Part shown: positions 1 to 36,666 of the stretch, piece by piece
Numbering within the stretch: the first letter of the stretch is position 1
Layout: the number at the start of each line of letters is the position of its first letter
IMG/VR virus record: IMGVR_UViG_3300037296_000240
Location: 1 to 36,666 of that record
Origin: a virus
Reading direction: 5' to 3' (one strand)
DNA: 36,666 nucleotides
Position numbers and translations under genes: made by a program
Notes under the pieces: generated by a model
Told to the model about the DNA's origin: nothing
The model's database searches: none
What the model saw: the letters and a program-made list of their open reading frames with translations, nothing else

Positions 1-60
1 GTAGGACGCGAAAAGCCCTTTGAGGGATCGCACCCACCCCTCCCCTTTGCGGGCCGGGCC

Positions 61-438
61 TCAGCCGCGCGGCCGCGTGATCGCCTCTTGCCGTTGCTTC
101 TCACCATCGTGATAGGCCTTGGATACCGCCTGCAGGTTTGCCGGATCCCAAAATAAGAACAGATCGCCGCGATGCGGCGTGATGTGATCGACAATGGCAG
201 AGTGCGGCGCGGGCGCTTTGCCATGTAGCAACACGCCAGTGTGATGACAGGTCCAATCGTCGCGGTCCAGGATCTCAAGGCGCAGATCGCGCCACCGCTT
301 TGTTGAGTAAAGGGGCCGCAGCTTGGCCGTTTGCCAGCGGATCTTATCGCGGGCCTTTTCAGCCGCAGCCCGGTCCGAAAACCCAAAGGCCATCGGCGCG
401 GGCGCGACAAGGCCGGGCAAGCGTTTCAACCGCGCCAT
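61..438 (-). CDS. HNH endonuclease, packaging-associated
   Basis: This 125-residue protein carries an HNH (beta-beta-alpha metal) nuclease fold. A conserved VDHI-PH segment lies near residues 83-88, followed by an Asn (in PANLQA) and a terminal H-D-x-E-K-Q element, and a single C-H pair (TCHH) lies upstream. Phages with this gene next to terS/terL (HK97-like) need the HNH protein to help the terminase cut at cos. Reading minus, the gene ends at position 61; if the window is circular, the terminase small subunit gene begins about 60 nt further on at the other window edge. That order supports a packaging role rather than a homing endonuclease. There is no strong Shine-Dalgarno sequence, but no better internal start is visible. 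Confidence 0.88.
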   Translation of the reverse strand: MARLKRLPGLVAPAPMAFGFSDRAAAEKARDKIRWQTAKLRPLYSTKRWRDLRLEILDRDDWTCHHTGVLLHGKAPAPHSAIVDHITPHRGDLFLFWDPANLQAVSKAYHDGEKQRQEAITRPRG

Positions 439-544
439 CGCATCACCACAGATCAGGAAAGGGAAAGGCCGGGCGCAACAGCCCCGGCCCGCTGGCGCAC
501 CAATGCACCGTTAAAAAGAGATAAGGACCGGCCGCCGGTAACAG

Positions 545-1318
545 TCAAGCCCCCCGATCTGCACCCGACCGACCAAAGCCCATTGCATCCGCGATATCAT
601 CTAAGGCCTTCCACGCCACAGACACCAAGACGCGCGTGGCATCGCTGCGCACCTTCCAGCCATGCGCGGCCAAGATCCGCGCCATATCGTGCCCATGCAC
701 GCACAAGGCCACCAGCAAGGGAAAGGCCTTGATTTCTTGGCGGCCGGGCCGTGCCCGCTGCACCGGCAGGGCCACCCGCTCAGGGCCGCGCAATACCCGG
801 CCGTGCATTGGATCGACGCGCCACCCATTCACACAAGCCTCGATCATCCGTAGGCGCTCAACGTGCTTAATGCGCGTTGTCACGCCCCCGTCAGAAATTC
901 CGCCGCTACCGTCGCCAGCCCCATCACCGCCGCCGCCAGAGGCCCCAATACGCTCATAGGATCCGGCTAACAGATCAGCCGCCCGGCGGCGCGGATCGCC
1001 ATCGGGCAGCGCCGCCAGGGCGCGGGCCACATTGCGCGTTGCCGTCCGCTGGCCTGGCGTCGTCACCTGCACCACCGATGCGACCACCTGGCGCAGATCA
1101 CCGCCCCGCGCGCGCACCGTGACCTCGACGCCTGGCGCAGCCTCAGACAGGCACGACAGCGCCACAGCCCCGGCCGCCATACCCGCCCGGGCACGTTCCC
1201 CCGATCCGGTGCCGATCCGTTGCCGCTTAGACGCCACCGCCCCGATGATCGCGGCATTGCATCCCGCCAGGTAAAGCCCGGCCCGGCCTCGATCTATGCC
1301 TTGAAATGTTTGGCTCAT
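545..1318 (-). CDS. Candidate phage regulator with C-terminal helix-turn-helix-like region (function unknown)
   Basis: This 257-residue protein is not confidently recognised. The ATG at 1318 is preferred over one at 1354 because a GGGGTGCGAT leader like those of other genes here precedes it. The N-terminal half is Ala/Gly-rich with a GGGGDGAGDGSGG linker near residues 130-145. The C-terminal third has basic helices with HGWKVRSDATRVLVSVAWKA, a pattern like the DNA-binding end of DUF6456/sigma-like HTH proteins of alphaproteobacterial prophages. It lies at the junction of the early operon and the HNH/terminase module and directly downstream of the repeat-rich region, where a late regulator or antiterminator would be expected. 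That role is inference; a structural domain search would decide. Confidence 0.6.
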   Translation of the reverse strand: MSQTFQGIDRGRAGLYLAGCNAAIIGAVASKRQRIGTGSGERARAGMAAGAVALSCLSEAAPGVEVTVRARGGDLRQVVASVVQVTTPGQRTATRNVARALAALPDGDPRRRAADLLAGSYERIGASGGGGDGAGDGSGGISDGGVTTRIKHVERLRMIEACVNGWRVDPMHGRVLRGPERVALPVQRARPGRQEIKAFPLLVALCVHGHDMARILAAHGWKVRSDATRVLVSVAWKALDDIADAMGFGRSGADRGA

Positions 1319-1376
1319 ATCGCACCCCATATGTTGATGATTAATTGCTACCATACCTCATATGTTGAAAACCTTA

Positions 1377-1667
1377 GGGATCAATAATTTTAAAGGGATT
1401 AGTGAGGGAGTAATAAGGGATTAATAATATCGTGGTAAATAACTGATATAAAAGCGAAATCATGCCGTGAGGGATTAACGGGACTAATATCCACGCCCTA
1501 CATAAAACAAACATCAGGGCGACCCCCGCACCCCTTCGCACATATATAGAAGAACCCCGACATTGATCCCGTTAATCCCTAACGCGGATTTTCACCGCGC
1601 AACGCGTTGATTTTGCACGCAAACATATCAGGGATTAACAATTCCGCAGTCCCGATTAGCGGGACTA
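1377..1667. repeat. Array of short GGGAnTA repeats in an AT-rich non-coding region
   Basis: About 450 bases upstream of the 545-1318 gene hold no convincing gene and are much more AT-rich than the rest. They contain many copies of a GGGAnTA motif: 1377, 1395, 1406, 1417, 1471, 1480, 1631 and 1661 on the plus strand, and inverted copies at 1564 and 1573. Three copies are spaced exactly 11 bp apart (1395/1406/1417), so they face the same side of the helix. AGGGATTAACGGGA at 1470-1483 recurs inverted at 1567-1580. AGTCCC-7-GGGACT (1648-1667) is a perfect palindrome. Such iterated sites suit a replication initiator, a repressor/activator or a partition-like protein. No DnaA box was seen. Confidence 0.7.
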
Positions 1668-1770
1668 GTGGACGTTTTCTTATAGGGGGTGCGGGGTGCG
1701 GGGTGCGCAAAAGAGCGCAGAAAGGCCGGGCGCGGGGCCTGGGCCTGCATTGGCGCAGATCCAAAACCGG

Positions 1771-1968
1771 CCGCGCGTGCTGATCTGTTAGGGATTATAG
1801 CGTGGCCCTAGTCGGGCCACAGGGCGCGCGCCAGCGCGCCCGCTGCACCGCTGCAGATCCTCAGGACCGCCGCGCGTGCTGATAGGGAGTGATCTATTGC
1901 GTGCCCCTAGTCGGGGCACAAGGCGCGCCCCAGCGCGCCCGATGCACCGCTGCGCCCTATTTGAACCG
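1771..1968. repeat. 99-bp tandem repeat, each unit with two adjacent stem-loops
   Basis: Two units (1771-1869 and 1870-1968) align at a constant offset of 99 bases: the 14-base start CCGCGCGTGCTGAT, both hairpins and TGCACCGCTGC all match. Stem-loop 1 is GTGGCCC-TAGTC-GGGCCAC at 1802-1820 in unit 1 and GTGCCCC-TAGTC-GGGGCAC at 1901-1919 in unit 2; the loop is kept while a stem base pair is swapped. Stem-loop 2 is GGGCGCGC-GCCA-GCGCGCCC (1822-1841) or GGCGCGC-CCCA-GCGCGCC (1922-1939). The two hairpins are separated by only one or two bases. A third partial start lies near 1971 inside the neighbouring gene's 3' end. No T-tract follows, so these are not ordinary terminators. Confidence 0.85.
1802..1939 (-). 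promoter_or_regulatory. Possible cis-acting antitermination RNA (put-like paired hairpins)
   Basis: If read in the minus-strand transcript that runs from the early genes toward the terminase, each unit forms two back-to-back hairpins with one or two unpaired bases between them. Phage HK022 put RNAs also consist of two stem-loops separated by an unpaired base, and they make RNA polymerase resistant to downstream terminators. The base-pair swap between copies (G-C to C-G in stem 1) indicates that pairing matters. Terminator-like hairpins exist further along the same strand (near 32.57, 28.88 and 19.30 kb). No sequence homology to put is claimed; the function is inferred from architecture only. 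Alternatives are protein-binding DNA palindromes or mRNA-stabilising 3' ends. Confidence 0.35.
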
Positions 1969-2193
1969 GGCGGCGCGTGCCGCCTGCACCATATCGCAGA
2001 CAATCCGCGCATCAGGGCGCGCAACCCGGCCCGTGCCCTCGCAGGCCTTGCAATACGCCCTGATATCGACCTCAGGCCAGAACCTGCCAAACACAACCGA
2101 CATATCACCAGCAGGCAGGACCACCTCAAGGCCGCCCCGCCCTTCGCAGGCGGGACAGGGCATGGCGTTTCCGTGCAAATGCGGATCAGCCAT
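1957..2193 (-). CDS. Small DnaJ-type zinc-finger protein
   Basis: A 78-residue protein with two CxxCxGxG-like knuckles, CPACEGRG near residue 13 and CKACEGTG near residue 48, the motif of the DnaJ cysteine-rich zinc-binding domain. Here there are only two half-sites, enough for one zinc ion. The ATG at 2193 overlaps the stop of the methyltransferase gene (TGATG), so the two are translationally coupled. Small CxxCxGxG proteins are common in phage early operons, but their roles are mostly unknown; RNA or protein binding is plausible. The 3' end runs into the 99-bp hairpin repeat, so the two are probably on the same transcript. Confidence 0.78.
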   Translation of the reverse strand: MADPHLHGNAMPCPACEGRGGLEVVLPAGDMSVVFGRFWPEVDIRAYCKACEGTGRVARPDARIVCDMVQAARAARFK

Positions 2194-2708
2194 CACTCAG
2201 CGGCCCAGGATTGCGCCGCGCGATCTGCAGCCGTCAAGGGCGCAAAGCATGACCCCAAAGACGTAGCCGACCGCAGGACGGCCGCCGCACGCGGCCCGGC
2301 CGCAAAAAGCGTTGTGCCCGTGCCAGGCGATCCGCCAATTGAGCCATCGGGGCGCTCAAACTTAATTTTACCATCCACAAACATGATCGCGGACGCGCGT
2401 GGCGCAAATTCCTGCCACCAGGGCGCAGATGTGCGATCTGGCAGCAGGGCAATCCCATCGCCATGCTCAAAGAACTTTTGCAGCCAGGCGCGCTTTGTGG
2501 ACTGGTGGCCGAAAGGCGGATTCATCCACACAAACCCCCGCCAAGGATATTCAAGCGACCCGAAAGAATACCACCGGGGGGCAGGCGTATGACGCGGACC
2601 GCCAGGGGGGCAGGCCACATCAAGATCAAACAGCACCCCAAGGCGGTCAAAGATATATCGCGGCGTATACCATTCGTCAGTTTCACCGGCGCTTTCATAA
2701 GAAGCCAT
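2193..2708 (-). CDS. dam: Phage DNA N6-adenine methyltransferase (Dam family)
   Basis: This 171-residue protein has the layout of the phage Dam family (Pfam Dam, as in T1 and N15). DEWYTP near residues 11-16 starts the substrate/cofactor region, FDLDVACPP follows, and MNPPFG near residues 62-67 is the catalytic D/N-PP-Y/F motif IV. Family members methylate adenine in GATC. GATC is strikingly common in this window, so a Dam enzyme would have many targets for evasion of restriction, control of replication or control of transcription. The ATG at 2708 is chosen because AAGG lies 8 bases upstream; an in-frame TTG two codons earlier is less likely. The gene sits in the early replication operon. Confidence 0.88.
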   Translation of the reverse strand: MASYESAGETDEWYTPRYIFDRLGVLFDLDVACPPGGPRHTPAPRWYSFGSLEYPWRGFVWMNPPFGHQSTKRAWLQKFFEHGDGIALLPDRTSAPWWQEFAPRASAIMFVDGKIKFERPDGSIGGSPGTGTTLFAAGPRAAAVLRSATSLGSCFAPLTAADRAAQSWAAE

Positions 2709-2722
2709 TTTCAAAACCTTTT

Positions 2723-2998
2723 TTAAAACAGGGAGGCTTGCGCCGTTTTCTTTTTCGGGGTGCGGGGTGCGGGCGCGGGGGCGGTGCGATCCCGGCGCGG
2801 GATCCCGACCGGCTGCGCGGCGGCCTGCAGGCGCGCATTGGCCTTAAACCGGCAACAGATCTTGGCGCAGGCCCGCAAGGGGCGCTGGCCCGCCTTGAGC
2901 ATCCGCGCGCCGCCTGGCGGCTGATAGCCAAAGGGGGCAGGGGATGCGCCGCAGATATCGCACGGCCCAGGGGCGCGGGGGGGCAGCTTGGCCGCCAT
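2723..2998 (-). CDS. Small cysteine-rich protein, probable zinc finger
   Basis: A 91-residue basic protein with CDICGASPAPFGY near residue 13 and CAKICC near residues 43-48, giving a likely four-cysteine zinc site. The C-terminal half is low-complexity, rich in Arg, Pro and Lys (APAPAPRTPKKK), suggesting nucleic acid binding. Its ATG overlaps the stop of the helicase gene (TAATG), so it is cotranslated with the replication proteins. I do not recognise a named family, although short proteins of this shape are common near primases in alphaproteobacterial prophages. Confidence 0.65.
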   Translation of the reverse strand: MAAKLPPRAPGPCDICGASPAPFGYQPPGGARMLKAGQRPLRACAKICCRFKANARLQAAAQPVGIPRRDRTAPAPAPRTPKKKTAQASLF

Positions 2999-4776
2999 TA
3001 TCCGCGCCGCCCGGCAGCGGCGCGCAATTCGTCGCCGTAGAGCGCAATCCGGTCCATTGCTTCCGTGCTGATCTTGATCCCGCGATATCCGGTATCGGAC
3101 ACCTTGGCGGGCGTAAACACATGCCCGCTTGGCCCTTTCATCGCCCCGGCGCGCGCCTTGATCGCATTGGATACCGTGCGCTTGCCCCAGGCCGCCTCGC
3201 CAGAGGACAACAGATAGGCGTTAAAGGCGTCCGACAGATCCCGGCCCTTTTCAAAATCATCGGGATTTCCGGTAATCTCGCAATCGGTTGTCAGGAACAC
3301 GCGCAGCGGATCACTGTCTTTGCGGTAATCCTCAGTCGCCGCGCGCACCGCCTCAGGCTTTCCCAATCCGTTATTGAGGTAATCCAGGCACCCGCGCACC
3401 AGCCATGCAAAGATCCCGTCACGCTCAGCCCATAGGTTTTCGGGCAGGGCCTCATCCACGTCCGCCTCATCAATCTGCACCTCGAAAGGCACCAGCATGA
3501 TCCGCCGCCAGATCCCATCATCCGCGCCGCGCACCTCAGGCTTGTGATTGCCCGAAATCGTCAACTTAAATTCTGGCACAATCTCCACAAATTCTTGCTG
3601 CATCCGCCGGATCATAATCGCCTCACCCCCGGTTAGGGCCTTGATGAGCGCCTCTTTCATGCGCTGGCCTTGCTCAGGCTCAGAGGCCCGCGCCATGCGC
3701 GCGCCAGGCAAGCGCACCAGATCGGGCGTGGCGTCCGATCCTTTGCGCTGTTCCGTGCCTGTCAGGGTTTCAATCGGGATTGTGGTGCCATAGTCCGCCA
3801 TGATCCGCGCAATGGTGTCCACCAGCGTGGACTTGCCATTGCGGCCGCCGCCGAAGAAAAACGCCAGTTTTTGCTCAGTCTTGATCCCGGTCAGGGTCAG
3901 GCCGAACCAGCGTTGCAGAAAATCGCGCACCTCAGGATCCGGCTGCACTGTCTCCAAAAATGCGAGAAACTTTGGACAGTCCGCCGCCGGATTGTAATCG
4001 GCCAGCATCATTTTGCTGATCATATGGCGGCGATCATGCGGGATCTGATCGACCCGCCACACCTTCTTTTTGTCACCCCATTCCGCCGCGTGCGCATCGA
4101 CCTCAGCCGACAGGCGCAAGATCCCGGTTTGGCAATTGATCATCAGCGGATCCGCATTGAGCGCATCGACCGGCACCGCCGCCGCCACGCGGACCTCTTG
4201 CAGCATATTGGAAATCTTGGATGTGTTGCCCGTGTTTTTGGCGTGCGCGCGGTGCGCCGCCTTGGCCTTATTCAGCCGCTCACGCACCGATTGCCCCTTG
4301 CTGGCAATGCCGCGCAACAGGTGCAGGCGCTCGGTTTGCTCATCGGTGCGATCCTTGACCTTTTCCAGCAGGGCCAGCTCACCTTGCGTCGCCAGGAAAT
4401 CATCGAGCGCGTCTTTTTCCCAATCCTCAAGCGCGATATGGGGCACCTCATCCAGGATCAGGGCGGCGATCTTTTGCGCATCGCGGCGCACATCTAATTC
4501 ATCCTCATCAGAGCGCCAGACGCGGCCCGCCCAGCGATACCACCCCAGGCGCGGCACAAAGCGGATATCGCCGCCAAAGTGCGCCGTGAGCCGCTGGCCG
4601 TTGCCAAAGTCATTGAGCGGAAAATCCGCGCACTGGCGCAGCACATCGCCCGCCAGGTCAGTATCCAGATCGGCGCGCCAAGCATCGCCGTCCGGCACCC
4701 CGGCGGATTGATCCACCGAAACCGGAGGCACCGTCTCATGATTGGCAAAGGCTTGCCGCACATCATCAACGCTCAT
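2998..4776 (-). CDS. D5/P4-family replicative helicase
   Basis: A 592-residue superfamily 3 helicase of the phage/plasmid primase (P4, C-terminal) type. A D5-like N-terminal region covers roughly residues 50-290. The Walker A loop is FFFGGGRNGKST at about 307-318. The SF3 C-terminal signature follows, with FKLTISGNHKPEVRGADDGIWRRI split across residues 403-426 (sensor Asn and arginine finger region). It unwinds DNA at the phage origin, normally together with the primase encoded just upstream. Its ATG overlaps the primase stop (ATGA), so the two are coupled. A Lys/Glu-rich coiled-coil-like stretch lies near residues 115-185. Length and order fit the family. Confidence 0.92.
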   Translation of the reverse strand: MSVDDVRQAFANHETVPPVSVDQSAGVPDGDAWRADLDTDLAGDVLRQCADFPLNDFGNGQRLTAHFGGDIRFVPRLGWYRWAGRVWRSDEDELDVRRDAQKIAALILDEVPHIALEDWEKDALDDFLATQGELALLEKVKDRTDEQTERLHLLRGIASKGQSVRERLNKAKAAHRAHAKNTGNTSKISNMLQEVRVAAAVPVDALNADPLMINCQTGILRLSAEVDAHAAEWGDKKKVWRVDQIPHDRRHMISKMMLADYNPAADCPKFLAFLETVQPDPEVRDFLQRWFGLTLTGIKTEQKLAFFFGGGRNGKSTLVDTIARIMADYGTTIPIETLTGTEQRKGSDATPDLVRLPGARMARASEPEQGQRMKEALIKALTGGEAIMIRRMQQEFVEIVPEFKLTISGNHKPEVRGADDGIWRRIMLVPFEVQIDEADVDEALPENLWAERDGIFAWLVRGCLDYLNNGLGKPEAVRAATEDYRKDSDPLRVFLTTDCEITGNPDDFEKGRDLSDAFNAYLLSSGEAAWGKRTVSNAIKARAGAMKGPSGHVFTPAKVSDTGYRGIKISTEAMDRIALYGDELRAAAGRRG

Positions 4777-5891
4777 TGTGCGCCCCCATCGTTTTTTGAT
4801 TGTCGCGCTAAGTCATTGAGATCCACACCCGCGCCGGGGTGCACTATCTGCGCCTCAAGGCCGGGCCGCGCCAATTGCGCCCGGCGCAATCCGCAGAGCA
4901 ATTTCGCCCGCGTCGCCGCCGGATCGCTATCGCCGTCTTGAATAAAGATCAGGCGCTTGATCCCAGCGGGCGGGATCCAGGCCGCATCATCACCTAGATC
5001 CGGCGCGCCGGAATAACGCACGCCAGGCACCTTGATTTGCCGCCCGGCCATGTTGCCCAGATCAATCCCGGCCCAATAGGTAGCCCCCGGCAAAACGGCC
5101 GCCGTGATCGCGCTGGCCGTGGTTTCAATGCCCTCGCCCATGATCATCACGCCGGTATCACCCAGGGGCGACAGGCGGATTGCGCCGCCCTTTTTGGATC
5201 CGCGCACCATCTTGGCGGGCATCACTTCGCCCTCATATTCGATATGGGCCTTGAGGCCGGGATAAGCCGGGTTGATCCAGGTTTGATGCACAGCCGTGAT
5301 CCGCCCGGCTGCATTTTGAATTGCGGCAATCATGGCGGGGCCGGTGTGAAGCGTGCGCACCTGGCCGCCCGCTTTTTTGCGGTAGGGGTGCGCTGGCGCA
5401 AAGCGCAGCGTGGGCGGCAAGGCCCCGTCCGGCCAGGCGATCCCGCGCGCCTCAAGATAAGCGGCAACGGCCGTGCCATCCGCGCCCTGGGCGCATCGCC
5501 AGATTTCGCGGGCATCGGCCACGGCGCGGGCGCGGGCGGAGGCTTCAAAATCGGCGCGCTTGCGCTCGACCTCAGCCGCGCGGGCCTGGCGGCGGGCGAC
5601 CTCAGCCGGATCCGGCTGCACATCGGCATCCCCTGCCAGATAAGATAAGGCAGTTTTAAAATCGCAGGCCAGGACGTGTTGCACCATGGCCAGGCCATCG
5701 CCGCCCGCATCACAGACCCGGCAGATAAAGACGCCAAGCGCCGGATTGACGCCAAAGCGATCTTTACCGCCGCAGACCGGGCACGGCCCGACATGCTCGA
5801 CACCGGCGCGCCGCAGACCCGCGACGCCCAGGCGCGACGCCACCTCTAAAAGCGGGATCGCCTTGGCCAGATCTAAACGCCCATCATCCAT
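4773..5891 (-). CDS. DNA primase with CHC2 zinc finger and Toprim domain
   Basis: A 372-residue phage primase. The N-terminal zinc site is CPVCGGKDRFGV followed by CRVCDAGGDG (about residues 37-70), typical of the CHC2/P4-type domain. A Toprim catalytic core follows, with the acidic motif MGEGIETTASA (around residue 245) and the metal-binding IQDGDSDPAA (around residue 315). It makes RNA primers for phage DNA replication and should work with the helicase gene that overlaps its 3' end. The ATG at 5891 has GGGGGG at a good distance; an in-frame TTG six codons upstream is possible but weaker. It overlaps the upstream winged-helix gene by 8 bases. Confidence 0.92.
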   Translation of the reverse strand: MDDGRLDLAKAIPLLEVASRLGVAGLRRAGVEHVGPCPVCGGKDRFGVNPALGVFICRVCDAGGDGLAMVQHVLACDFKTALSYLAGDADVQPDPAEVARRQARAAEVERKRADFEASARARAVADAREIWRCAQGADGTAVAAYLEARGIAWPDGALPPTLRFAPAHPYRKKAGGQVRTLHTGPAMIAAIQNAAGRITAVHQTWINPAYPGLKAHIEYEGEVMPAKMVRGSKKGGAIRLSPLGDTGVMIMGEGIETTASAITAAVLPGATYWAGIDLGNMAGRQIKVPGVRYSGAPDLGDDAAWIPPAGIKRLIFIQDGDSDPAATRAKLLCGLRRAQLARPGLEAQIVHPGAGVDLNDLARQSKNDGGAQ

Positions 5892-6294
5892 GATACGCCC
5901 CCCGCTCAAATTTGAAATCTTGCGGCGCGATCAGCCGGTAGCCGACGCCATAAAGCCGCTCGATCGACACCGGATAAGCCGACGCCTCAAAGGCCCGGCG
6001 GATCGCCGCGACGCGGGGAAAGACCGCCTCGATGGATCCCCAATCATCAGGGCGATGATCCGCAAAGCCCGCCGCCTGCAGCGCATCGGCTGAGACGAAC
6101 TTGCCCCGGCGGCGATCTAGCGCGTGCAAGATCCGCATATCCCGCGCTGAGAGATCCAAGCCCAGATCGGCGCAGCCTTGATAAAACTCAGGCACGGGAT
6201 CGAGATAGAACGACAGCAATTCCAGCGCGTAGGACAGCCGGTCCGCTGCAGGCTGCGCCATCACTTCGCGGCGCAACTGATCCACCGCGCCCAT
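5884..6294 (-). CDS. Orphan winged-helix protein, OmpR/PhoB C-terminal-like
   Basis: A 136-residue protein whose C-terminal half resembles the OmpR-type DNA-binding domain: SARDMRILHALDRRRGKFVS, then an ADALQAAG helix, then VAAIRRAFEAS (recognition-helix position) and the closing hairpin ERLYGVGYRL. There is no receiver domain and no partner kinase in the window. The N-terminal 50 residues are helical and unlike a receiver. It starts with ATG at 6294 overlapping the previous stop (TGATG). Its place between the Cro-like gene and the primase suggests an early regulator or an initiator that binds the phage origin; neither is proven. A second protein of this class is at 12017-12319. Confidence 0.75.
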   Translation of the reverse strand: MGAVDQLRREVMAQPAADRLSYALELLSFYLDPVPEFYQGCADLGLDLSARDMRILHALDRRRGKFVSADALQAAGFADHRPDDWGSIEAVFPRVAAIRRAFEASAYPVSIERLYGVGYRLIAPQDFKFERGAYHG

Positions 6295-6581
6295 CACCGG
6301 GCGCGCCGGGCCGCACCCGCCGCCAGGCCGCGCATCGGATCGCGGGGCAGGGCTGCAGGCACATCGCGCAAGAGGCGCAGATAGGCGGCGACGATTTCGG
6401 GCAAGAGCGCGGCCGGGGCCACCCCGGCATCCGCAGACATCTTGTTAATCAGGCGGCGATCCGTCACAGACAGATCCGCCAGCACATCACCGCCCGCATC
6501 CAGCACCGCGCGGGCGGCGGGCATCGGGGCCTTGAGCGTCACTTTGCGCCCCAGGGGGCAGGCATCAAACAGGCCATCCAT
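6294..6581 (-). CDS. Small early protein of unknown function
   Basis: A 95-residue protein with no family I recognise. It starts at an ATG at 6581 that overlaps the stop of the Cro-like gene, and its stop overlaps the next start, so it is clearly part of the tightly coupled early operon. The middle (residues 35-75) is predicted helical, with VTDRRLINKMSADAGVAPAALLPEIVAAYL, which could be a ribbon-helix-helix or HTH-like segment. The rest is Ala/Arg-rich. Only its operon membership supports its reality, and that support is good. Confidence 0.7.
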   Translation of the reverse strand: MDGLFDACPLGRKVTLKAPMPAARAVLDAGGDVLADLSVTDRRLINKMSADAGVAPAALLPEIVAAYLRLLRDVPAALPRDPMRGLAAGAARRAR

Positions 6582-28865: not shown

Positions 28866-28885
28866 AAAAAAGGGGCCGTGGCCCC
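28866..28885 (-). terminator. Terminator-like hairpin ahead of the major tail protein gene
   Basis: GGGGCC-AC-GGCCCC (or a 5-bp stem with a 4-base loop) followed by six T on the minus strand, in the gap between the tail terminator gene and the tube gene. No clear promoter follows it, so late transcription must pass through, partly or with antitermination. Confidence 0.6.
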
Positions 28886-32520: not shown

Positions 32521-32548
32521 ATATAAACCTTTCAGGGTTTCAGAGGGG

Positions 32549-32594
32549 AAAAAAGGGGCGCGTGATCCGCGACCCCGGCCGGGGATCACGCCCC
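32549..32594 (-). terminator. Strong terminator-like hairpin before the major capsid gene
   Basis: On the minus strand GGGGCGTGATCC pairs with GGATCACGCGCCCC (a 12-bp stem with a two-base bulge; the loop itself is a GGCC palindrome), followed by six T. It lies across the protease gene end and the start of the capsid leader. The leader to the ATG is only 28 bases, too short for a promoter. Confidence 0.68.
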
Positions 32595-33170
32595 TTGCAG
32601 CCGCAGCCGCATCCGCAGGCGGCGCAGGGTGCCGTCATTGGAATTTTGTTGTGTGAGGGCCTGGGCCGCGCTCAGGCTGCGCAGGCCGATATCGGTGCCC
32701 GCGTAGGCGGGGGCCGTCACAATCGACACATCCACCAATTCTTTGAGGCGCTTGATCGTGCGCTTTGGCTGCGCGCCCGTATCATCCCATTCATCGCCGC
32801 CCACATCGACGCGAAAGCCAAAAGACATTTCGCGCAAATCGCCGCGTTTCATCTTGGCGACGATCCGCGCCACATCGGGATCCGCCGGATCGAGATCCGC
32901 GCTCATCAAAAGCCCGCGCGCATCCACCGACAGTTTCAGCGTGCCCGAACTCACCCGCGCCAGCGGCAAGCCGGTGTGATTGATCAAAAAGCGCACATCA
33001 TCCTCAAGGCGGCCATCAAAGGCCCCCTGCGCGATGCGCTCGGAAAACATGCCGCCGATGTCAGCCCATTCGCCAAACACCGCCGCATATCCCTCGACCC
33101 GCACCGCGCCGCCTTCCGCTGCGCGCACCTCAAGCGGCGCGCTGCAGCGGATTTCTTTATCCTTGGCCAT
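32586..33170 (-). CDS. Prohead protease (HK97 gp4-like, U35)
   Basis: A 194-residue protease. The ATG at 33170 has AAGGGG at a proper distance, unlike the in-frame ATGs upstream. The U35 family pattern is clear: VEGYAAVFGEWADIGGMFSERIAQGAF, then LINHTGLPLARVSSGTLKL with the catalytic His in NHT, and REMSFGFRV with the catalytic Ser. It cleaves the scaffold arm of the capsid protein. It overlaps the portal gene end by 14 bases, so translation is linked. Confidence 0.92.
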   Translation of the reverse strand: MAKDKEIRCSAPLEVRAAEGGAVRVEGYAAVFGEWADIGGMFSERIAQGAFDGRLEDDVRFLINHTGLPLARVSSGTLKLSVDARGLLMSADLDPADPDVARIVAKMKRGDLREMSFGFRVDVGGDEWDDTGAQPKRTIKRLKELVDVSIVTAPAYAGTDIGLRSLSAAQALTQQNSNDGTLRRLRMRLRLQGA

Positions 33171-36169: not shown

Positions 36170-36663
36170 TAGTTAAGCAAGCCGCCCCATTTTGCCCCCG
36201 GTTTTCTGGCGGCCACCGCCAGCGCCGCTTTTTTGCCCAAGGGTTTCTCAGCATCATCACCAGGATCCGGCTGATCATCCTCAGGATCCGGCGCGACCGG
36301 CACGGCCGCGTGCCCCTTCTCGATCAGGCTCAGCAGCTTGTTTGCAGCCGACACGTTGCCATCGCCCATCCGGCCCATGATCTTTTGCAGCGCGGCCGCC
36401 TCGACGATATCGGCAGCCTCAGCCAACTCACGGGAAAAATGTTTCCGCAACGTCTTAGGATCGCACCCGACACGCCGCGCAATGCGTTCCTGCGTCCACC
36501 CGGCCGCCCGCAAAATCGTCACAAGATCTTGATTTTCCTTGTTTTTTTCAAAAGCGGGCGCGCCCCAATTGTCATGCGCCGCATTAACCGGATCGCCCAA
36601 AAGGTCACGATCAGAGCCGGGGGCCGGAATTTCATCAGTCACGGGGAAAAAAAATCTCCACAT
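36169..36663 (-). CDS. terS: Terminase small subunit
   Basis: About 164 residues. The DNA-binding HTH is ILRAAGWTQERIARRVGCDP near residues 50-69, followed by a helical oligomerisation part (ELAEAADIVEAAALQKIMG) and an acidic then basic tail. It recognises the packaging site and loads TerL. The first possible ATG is at 36663, three bases from the window edge; a GTG at 36642 is another option with GGAGA upstream. The frame may begin on the other side of the join in the circular genome, but a start here is more likely. Confidence 0.88.
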   Translation of the reverse strand: MWRFFFPVTDEIPAPGSDRDLLGDPVNAAHDNWGAPAFEKNKENQDLVTILRAAGWTQERIARRVGCDPKTLRKHFSRELAEAADIVEAAALQKIMGRMGDGNVSAANKLLSLIEKGHAAVPVAPDPEDDQPDPGDDAEKPLGKKAALAVAARKPGAKWGGLLN

Positions 36664-36666
36664 TAG

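Follow-up and report, generated by a model that had tools for sequence, protein, structure and literature searches.

The put RNAs of phage HK022 (putL and putR) are about 70 nt long, lie 0-270 nt after the early promoters and fold into two long, bulged stems with non-canonical pairs, an RNA triplex and an A9-G35 platform; they suppress both intrinsic and Rho-dependent terminators and act over 10 kb (PMC9378689). Rho-utilisation (rut) sites favour C>G bubbles, and the 3' ends that Rho makes are trimmed by exonuclease until a stable structure upstream of the rut site is reached (PMC12350095; PMC9927376). Here, we describe a tandem double-hairpin element from a Rhodobacterales-type phage, which is a genuine structured RNA without an Rfam entry, belongs to a narrow phage clade and probably forms part of how an operon ends.

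The window, i.e., the whole stretch of DNA that was analysed, is a virus record, 36,666 bases long, that encodes a primase, a D5-type helicase, a methyltransferase, an integrase, a terminase and structural proteins. The two ends of the record (window 1-60 and 36640-36666) fall between the HNH gene and the small terminase gene, which adjoin each other in the related phage L002; this break near terS is either a physical end or the result of cutting a circle. The element starts 2 nt beyond the last early stop codon, where the primase-helicase (replication) operon has its 3' end. This operon lies on the minus strand and includes the genes for the D5-type (SF3) helicase (2998-4776), a Dam-type DNA methyltransferase (2193-2714) and, as the last early gene, a 79-aa zinc-finger-like protein (1957-2196) that has weak Anti-TRAP and Q-like matches and no homolog in L002 or its close relative L003. 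A sigma-70 consensus scan of the minus strand from 1.9 to 5 kb found no promoter-like site. Past the element follow an AT-rich control region, a gene for a protein of 257 or 269 aa (545-1318, minus strand), the HNH nuclease gene and the terminase genes. The 257- or 269-aa protein belongs to a conserved but unannotated family that about 15 relatives share; its helical C-terminal domain is well predicted, its fold matches are weak (unnamed, DUF6456 and sigma-like phage proteins), and it is possibly a late regulator. A search of viral contigs with the 269-aa protein gave no match.

Tandem Repeats Finder called a repeat at 1770-1953 of the window (period 99, 1.9 copies), where two units 99 bp apart each comprise two adjacent GC-rich stem-loops. 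Read on the minus strand, i.e., in gene direction, each unit runs from a weak third stem, seen in the predicted folds, to hairpin 1 with a four-base loop and then to hairpin 2 with the loop GACUA. In the upstream (5') unit (1896-1958), hairpin 1 (1922-1939, GGCGCGC/GCGCGCC, 7 bp, loop CCCA as read in the window) and hairpin 2 (1901-1919, GTGCCCC-GACTA-GGGGCAC, loop TAGTC as read in the window) are 2 nt apart. In the downstream (3') unit (1797-1859), a single nucleotide separates hairpin 1 (1822-1841, 8 bp, loop GCCA) from hairpin 2 (1802-1820, GTGGCCC-GACTA-GGGCCAC, again with loop TAGTC). The stems of the element have 7-9 perfect pairs without bulges. Adjacent perfect stem pairs of at least 7+7 bp were found twice, 99 bp apart and in register, compared with 0.1 expected from the Markov-shuffled window, and the minus-strand folding z-scores of the units were -3.3 and -2.5. 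A covariance model (R1) built from the units of the window, L002 and L003 matched the upstream unit with 64.8 bits and the downstream unit with 72.4 bits, both units being part of the training set. Repeat call, stem coordinates and shuffling bear out what a sequence-only reading of this DNA had described, namely two 99-bp units, each with two perfect stem-loops 1-2 nt apart, the one with the four-base loop having a GC stem of 7-8 bp. That reading was also correct in that a G-C pair of the other stem is replaced by C-G between the units while the TAGTC loop (GACUA in the RNA) is kept.

Relatives were found by a search with the D5-type helicase, which yielded 30 loci in bacterial genomes, nearly all from Rhodobacterales, and 36 in viral contigs. 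Two of the related phages, L002 and L003 (helicase identity about 75%), carry a tandem double hairpin at the same place, with units 101 bp apart and with stems that differ from those of the window: GCGGCCC/GGGCCGC versus GGCGCGC/GCGCGCC in hairpin 1, and GCCGCCC/GGGCGGC versus GTGGCCC/GGGCCAC and GTGCCCC/GGGGCAC in hairpin 2. Stem pairs were counted in structure register, as the MAFFT alignment had misplaced hairpin 1. Across the six units, both sides changed at pairs 2, 5 and 6 of hairpin 1 and at pairs 4, 5 and 6 of hairpin 2, and no pair was broken; these units represent two independent lineages and not three, because L002 and L003 are nearly identical at the element. Five of the six doubly changed pairs were added by L002 and L003 beyond the G-C/C-G swap within the window. 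Invariant across the units is CCCGACUAGGG, with the core CCCGACTAGGG unchanged; in hairpin 2, this leaves the GACUA loop and its three closing pairs constant and the outer stem pairs variable. The earlier proposal that the pairing is under selection, until then founded on the two units of the window, is upheld by these homologs, in which the stems have changed and the pairing has been kept. The compensatory changes argue that the element is an RNA structure under selection on the operon (minus) strand, confined in the data searched to a small clade. L003 keeps the element directly after the preceding gene and lacks the methyltransferase gene, the presence or absence of which is precise between these otherwise near-identical phages (L002:8114-8641 versus L003:8110-8120), with a short repeat TTTA at the junction.

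The sequence-only reading had also proposed a covariance-model search of related phages as a check. Run over about 1.8 Mb of relatives, model R1 recovered the element in L002 and L003 and found no copies beyond these and the window. In 395 genomes of one host family, the model gave two weak matches only (E about 0.008); both have several broken pairs, fit chance for 395 genomes and were rejected as true copies. An Rfam cmscan of window positions 1-6000 returned nothing near the gathering score, and neither a BLAST search of the region against phages nor a direct pattern scan for the element found a match. The units are 87-92% alike within a phage and 58-69% between lineages, and this far greater likeness within a phage points to concerted evolution or to separate duplications that happened twice. 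Such likeness is also what makes a selfish or neutral repeat conceivable, either a mobile element that is small and palindromic or a duplication that gene conversion maintains. Yet the unit has no second location in the window phage and none in the 395 family genomes beyond the chance-level matches, and the pairing was kept under change; already weakened by the compensatory changes, a selfish or neutral origin appears very improbable to us.

In having two neighbouring stem-loops per unit, as a putative cis RNA of a temperate phage, the element resembles HK022 putL and putR, and the sequence-only reading had suggested a put-like antitermination RNA built on the same plan. Nascent double hairpins would then bind RNA polymerase, as put does at the beta' zinc-binding domain, and the polymerase would pass the nearby Rho site and later terminators. 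Such a role would suit the known action of put on both kinds of terminator over long distances and the presence of a conserved terminator in the late operon. However, the likeness in plan extends to the two neighbouring stem-loops and no further. The bulged, long stems, the triplex, the A-G platform and the promoter-near position that define put are absent, and the element instead has short perfect stems, is duplicated in tandem and comes after the early genes, where their operon has its 3' end. A comparison of model R1 with the HK022 put regions, with filters off, gave no match (best score 6 bits, E 0.57), and relatives carry terminators at the site instead. The terminator-like hairpins that had been noted inside the structural operon are real: an intrinsic terminator at 28872-28885 (minus strand) precedes the major tail gene and is conserved in both close relatives (G008 and G009), and an intrinsic-terminator-like hairpin with a T6 tail at 32541-32595 (about 32.57 kb, minus strand) precedes the major head gene, as judged from sequence and gene annotation. 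Because these strong terminators stand directly before the major tail and head genes, antitermination is not a necessary conclusion; at such places, terminators accompanied by promoters close by would be equally reasonable. We therefore do not retain the antitermination proposal as the explanation of the element and regard it as improbable.

At the site of the element, the relatives L004, L006, L011 and L047 carry ordinary intrinsic terminators, i.e., hairpins with U-rich tails (in L004, GGGCCGGCCTGC-acaac-GTAGGCCGGCCC-TTTTTTTT), and L038 carries two hairpins. The tails of the terminators contain 5-8 U, whereas the 8 nt after hairpin 2 of the element contain only 1-3 U, and the element is thus not a plain intrinsic terminator by itself. 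It shares with intrinsic terminators a GC-rich hairpin between operons, at a site where relatives have such a terminator, but differs in lacking a U-tract after either hairpin, in its conserved loop and in being double and tandem.

The hairpin units lie about 60 nt ahead of a C-rich, G-poor stretch (1658-1737, minus strand), whose 80 nt include 39 C but only 14 G and which ranks first in the whole minus strand (z 4.4). When the transcribed strand of each sequence was scanned for the 80 nt richest in C and poorest in G, the stretch at this place ranked first in 14 of 16 sequences, the window included and several of them partial records. C-rich, G-poor composition of this kind is what Rho binds, and it is Rho-utilisation-like as a signature of composition and not as proof. 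From phage to phage, the stretch changes its words but remains C-rich, a pattern more in keeping with Rho than with a fixed DNA site. A CCCCGCACCCC word in the stretch recurs inverted about 170 bp further on, and by this token the C-rich stretch may be a DNA site.

We propose that the mRNA of the early (replication) operon has a structured 3' untranslated region and that the element is this region. Transcription would proceed leftward through the helicase, methyltransferase and zinc-finger genes, then through the two double-hairpin units and into the 80-nt C-rich, G-poor stretch, where Rho would load and stop transcription ahead of the control region of the next gene. Exonucleases acting 3' to 5' would shorten the released RNA until they meet the stable hairpins, and these would fix and protect the mRNA end, with the second unit as a back-up. 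We see an even chance for this account, in which a Rho-type terminator ends the replication-operon mRNA and the hairpins secure the end of that mRNA. This proposal draws directly on the conserved pairing, the position, the C>G stretch and the terminators at the same site in relatives; as the element stands at the end of the replication genes and before a likely transcription-stop region, a role in ending or protecting the message is likelier than one as an anti-stop signal. With its stable hairpins shortly before the stretch richest in C and poorest in G, the element also resembles the arrangement known from trimmed Rho transcripts (PMC12350095, PMC9927376), in which a hairpin upstream of a Rho-dependent terminator protects the 3' end. 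Unusual in comparison are the two conserved double hairpins and their unvarying loop, and the likeness to Rho sites derives from composition. Against a protected 3' end, it has to be considered that the structure was inferred from two independent lineages only and that an exonuclease block needs neither an invariant loop nor a tandem second copy sharing that loop.

The AT-rich control region (1355-1657, minus strand) contains direct repeats about 11 bp apart (TAATCCC/TAGTCCC, at 1355-1500) and a dyad at 1648-1666. Arrays with this spacing occur in the control region of every relative shown, at the same place in L004, L006, L011, L038, L039, L041, L042, L044, L045, L047, L049 and L069, with words that differ (TAATCCC, CTACTCCCGTA, CGCTCCATTCT). 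A winged-helix protein of the PhoB/OmpR type co-occurs with the repeats in most of those phages and is in the window (5884-6297, minus strand) a candidate binder of the 11-bp repeats; PhoB boxes are 11-bp direct repeats as well. Inverted words of the CCCCGCACCCC type, about 170 bp apart at window 1519-1535 and 1685-1708, flank the control region and are found in many relatives. The iteron-like arrays, the AT-richness, the conserved dyad and the adjoining primase and helicase genes would be in accordance with an element that acts as DNA, its hairpins being extruded or single-stranded near a replication origin and serving for priming or as a component of that origin. However, there are relatives that have retained the repeats without the hairpins, GC skew has no switch at the site and gives no origin signal, and the repeats could just as well form the operator of the gene that follows. 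We consider a role as DNA quite unlikely.

Protection of the 3' end alone leaves the invariant GACUA loop unexplained, and the loop may have an extra role in recognition or folding, such as the binding of a factor. It is tempting to go further and propose that a phage or host protein, or another RNA, recognises the GACUA pentaloop on its CCC/GGG stem, and that the 3' UTR or an sRNA derived from it acts in trans or controls the early-to-late switch. The constancy of loop and closing pairs next to variable outer stems points this way, as does the retention at this site of CTAG, a word that is scarce in the window (15 occurrences against about 126 expected). There is also a precedent in Rhodobacter for sRNAs from 3' UTRs, as several homologous sRNAs, CcsR1-4, come from one 3' UTR in the Rhodobacterales bacterium Rhodobacter sphaeroides (PMC8625941). 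The element itself, a putative RNA, matches no Rfam family, and the CcsR loop motif, CCUCCUCCC, is absent from its loops. The boxB hairpin of the lambda and P22 nut sites is a further parallel, being a short stem with a five-base loop that begins with GA and ends with A (GACAA in P22). In contrast to boxB, the element has no boxA in sight, its hairpin is paired with another and placed after genes, and GACUA misfits a GNRA-like fold.

Further support for recognition of the loop comes from the unrelated podovirus-like contig L074 (IMGVR_UViG_3300011398_000030), which has 13 tandem hairpins with GACTA, GACCA or GACAA loops. These perfect hairpins of 5-6 bp with differing stems extend over about 620 nt (540-1190, minus strand), and the array ends at an intrinsic terminator beside a terminase gene. 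From its sequence, the array looks like a sponge-type ncRNA; it had no match among annotated phages, and a pattern scan for similar repeats gave two chance matches only. On the other side, no partner gene was found: a shared RNA-binding partner was sought among the early genes of the window, L002 and L003, and none stood out as exclusive to the three element-bearing phages. GACTA-loop hairpins are moreover nearly absent from Rhodobacterales genomes and very rare in the loci of other relatives, and a literature search for a GACUA pentaloop found none. Two pattern scans for the CCCGACTAGGG core returned scattered single hairpins, some of them in coding DNA and one forming the loop of an intrinsic terminator (L179). 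A single GTCGCCC-GACTA-GGGCGAC hairpin stands 45 nt past a replication-initiator-like gene in the unrelated contig L072 (2516-2540). Taken as an account of the element, recognition of the loop is a tentative proposal that we think rather unlikely. That the tandem double hairpins at the early/late boundary and a protein-titrating 13-hairpin sponge in L074 belong together as a novel class of regulatory RNAs in phages, with the GACNA pentaloop hairpin as its basic module and one shared loop-binding factor, is speculative and seems to us highly doubtful.

Close relatives solve the end of one operon differently: some have intrinsic terminators, others the conserved double hairpin in tandem, and in both cases a C-rich stretch of Rho-like composition lies alongside. 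The locus therefore offers a small natural comparison of the ways in which phages close off one block of genes ahead of the following one. If it is true that a factor binds the GACUA loop, the element would represent a new regulatory RNA motif.
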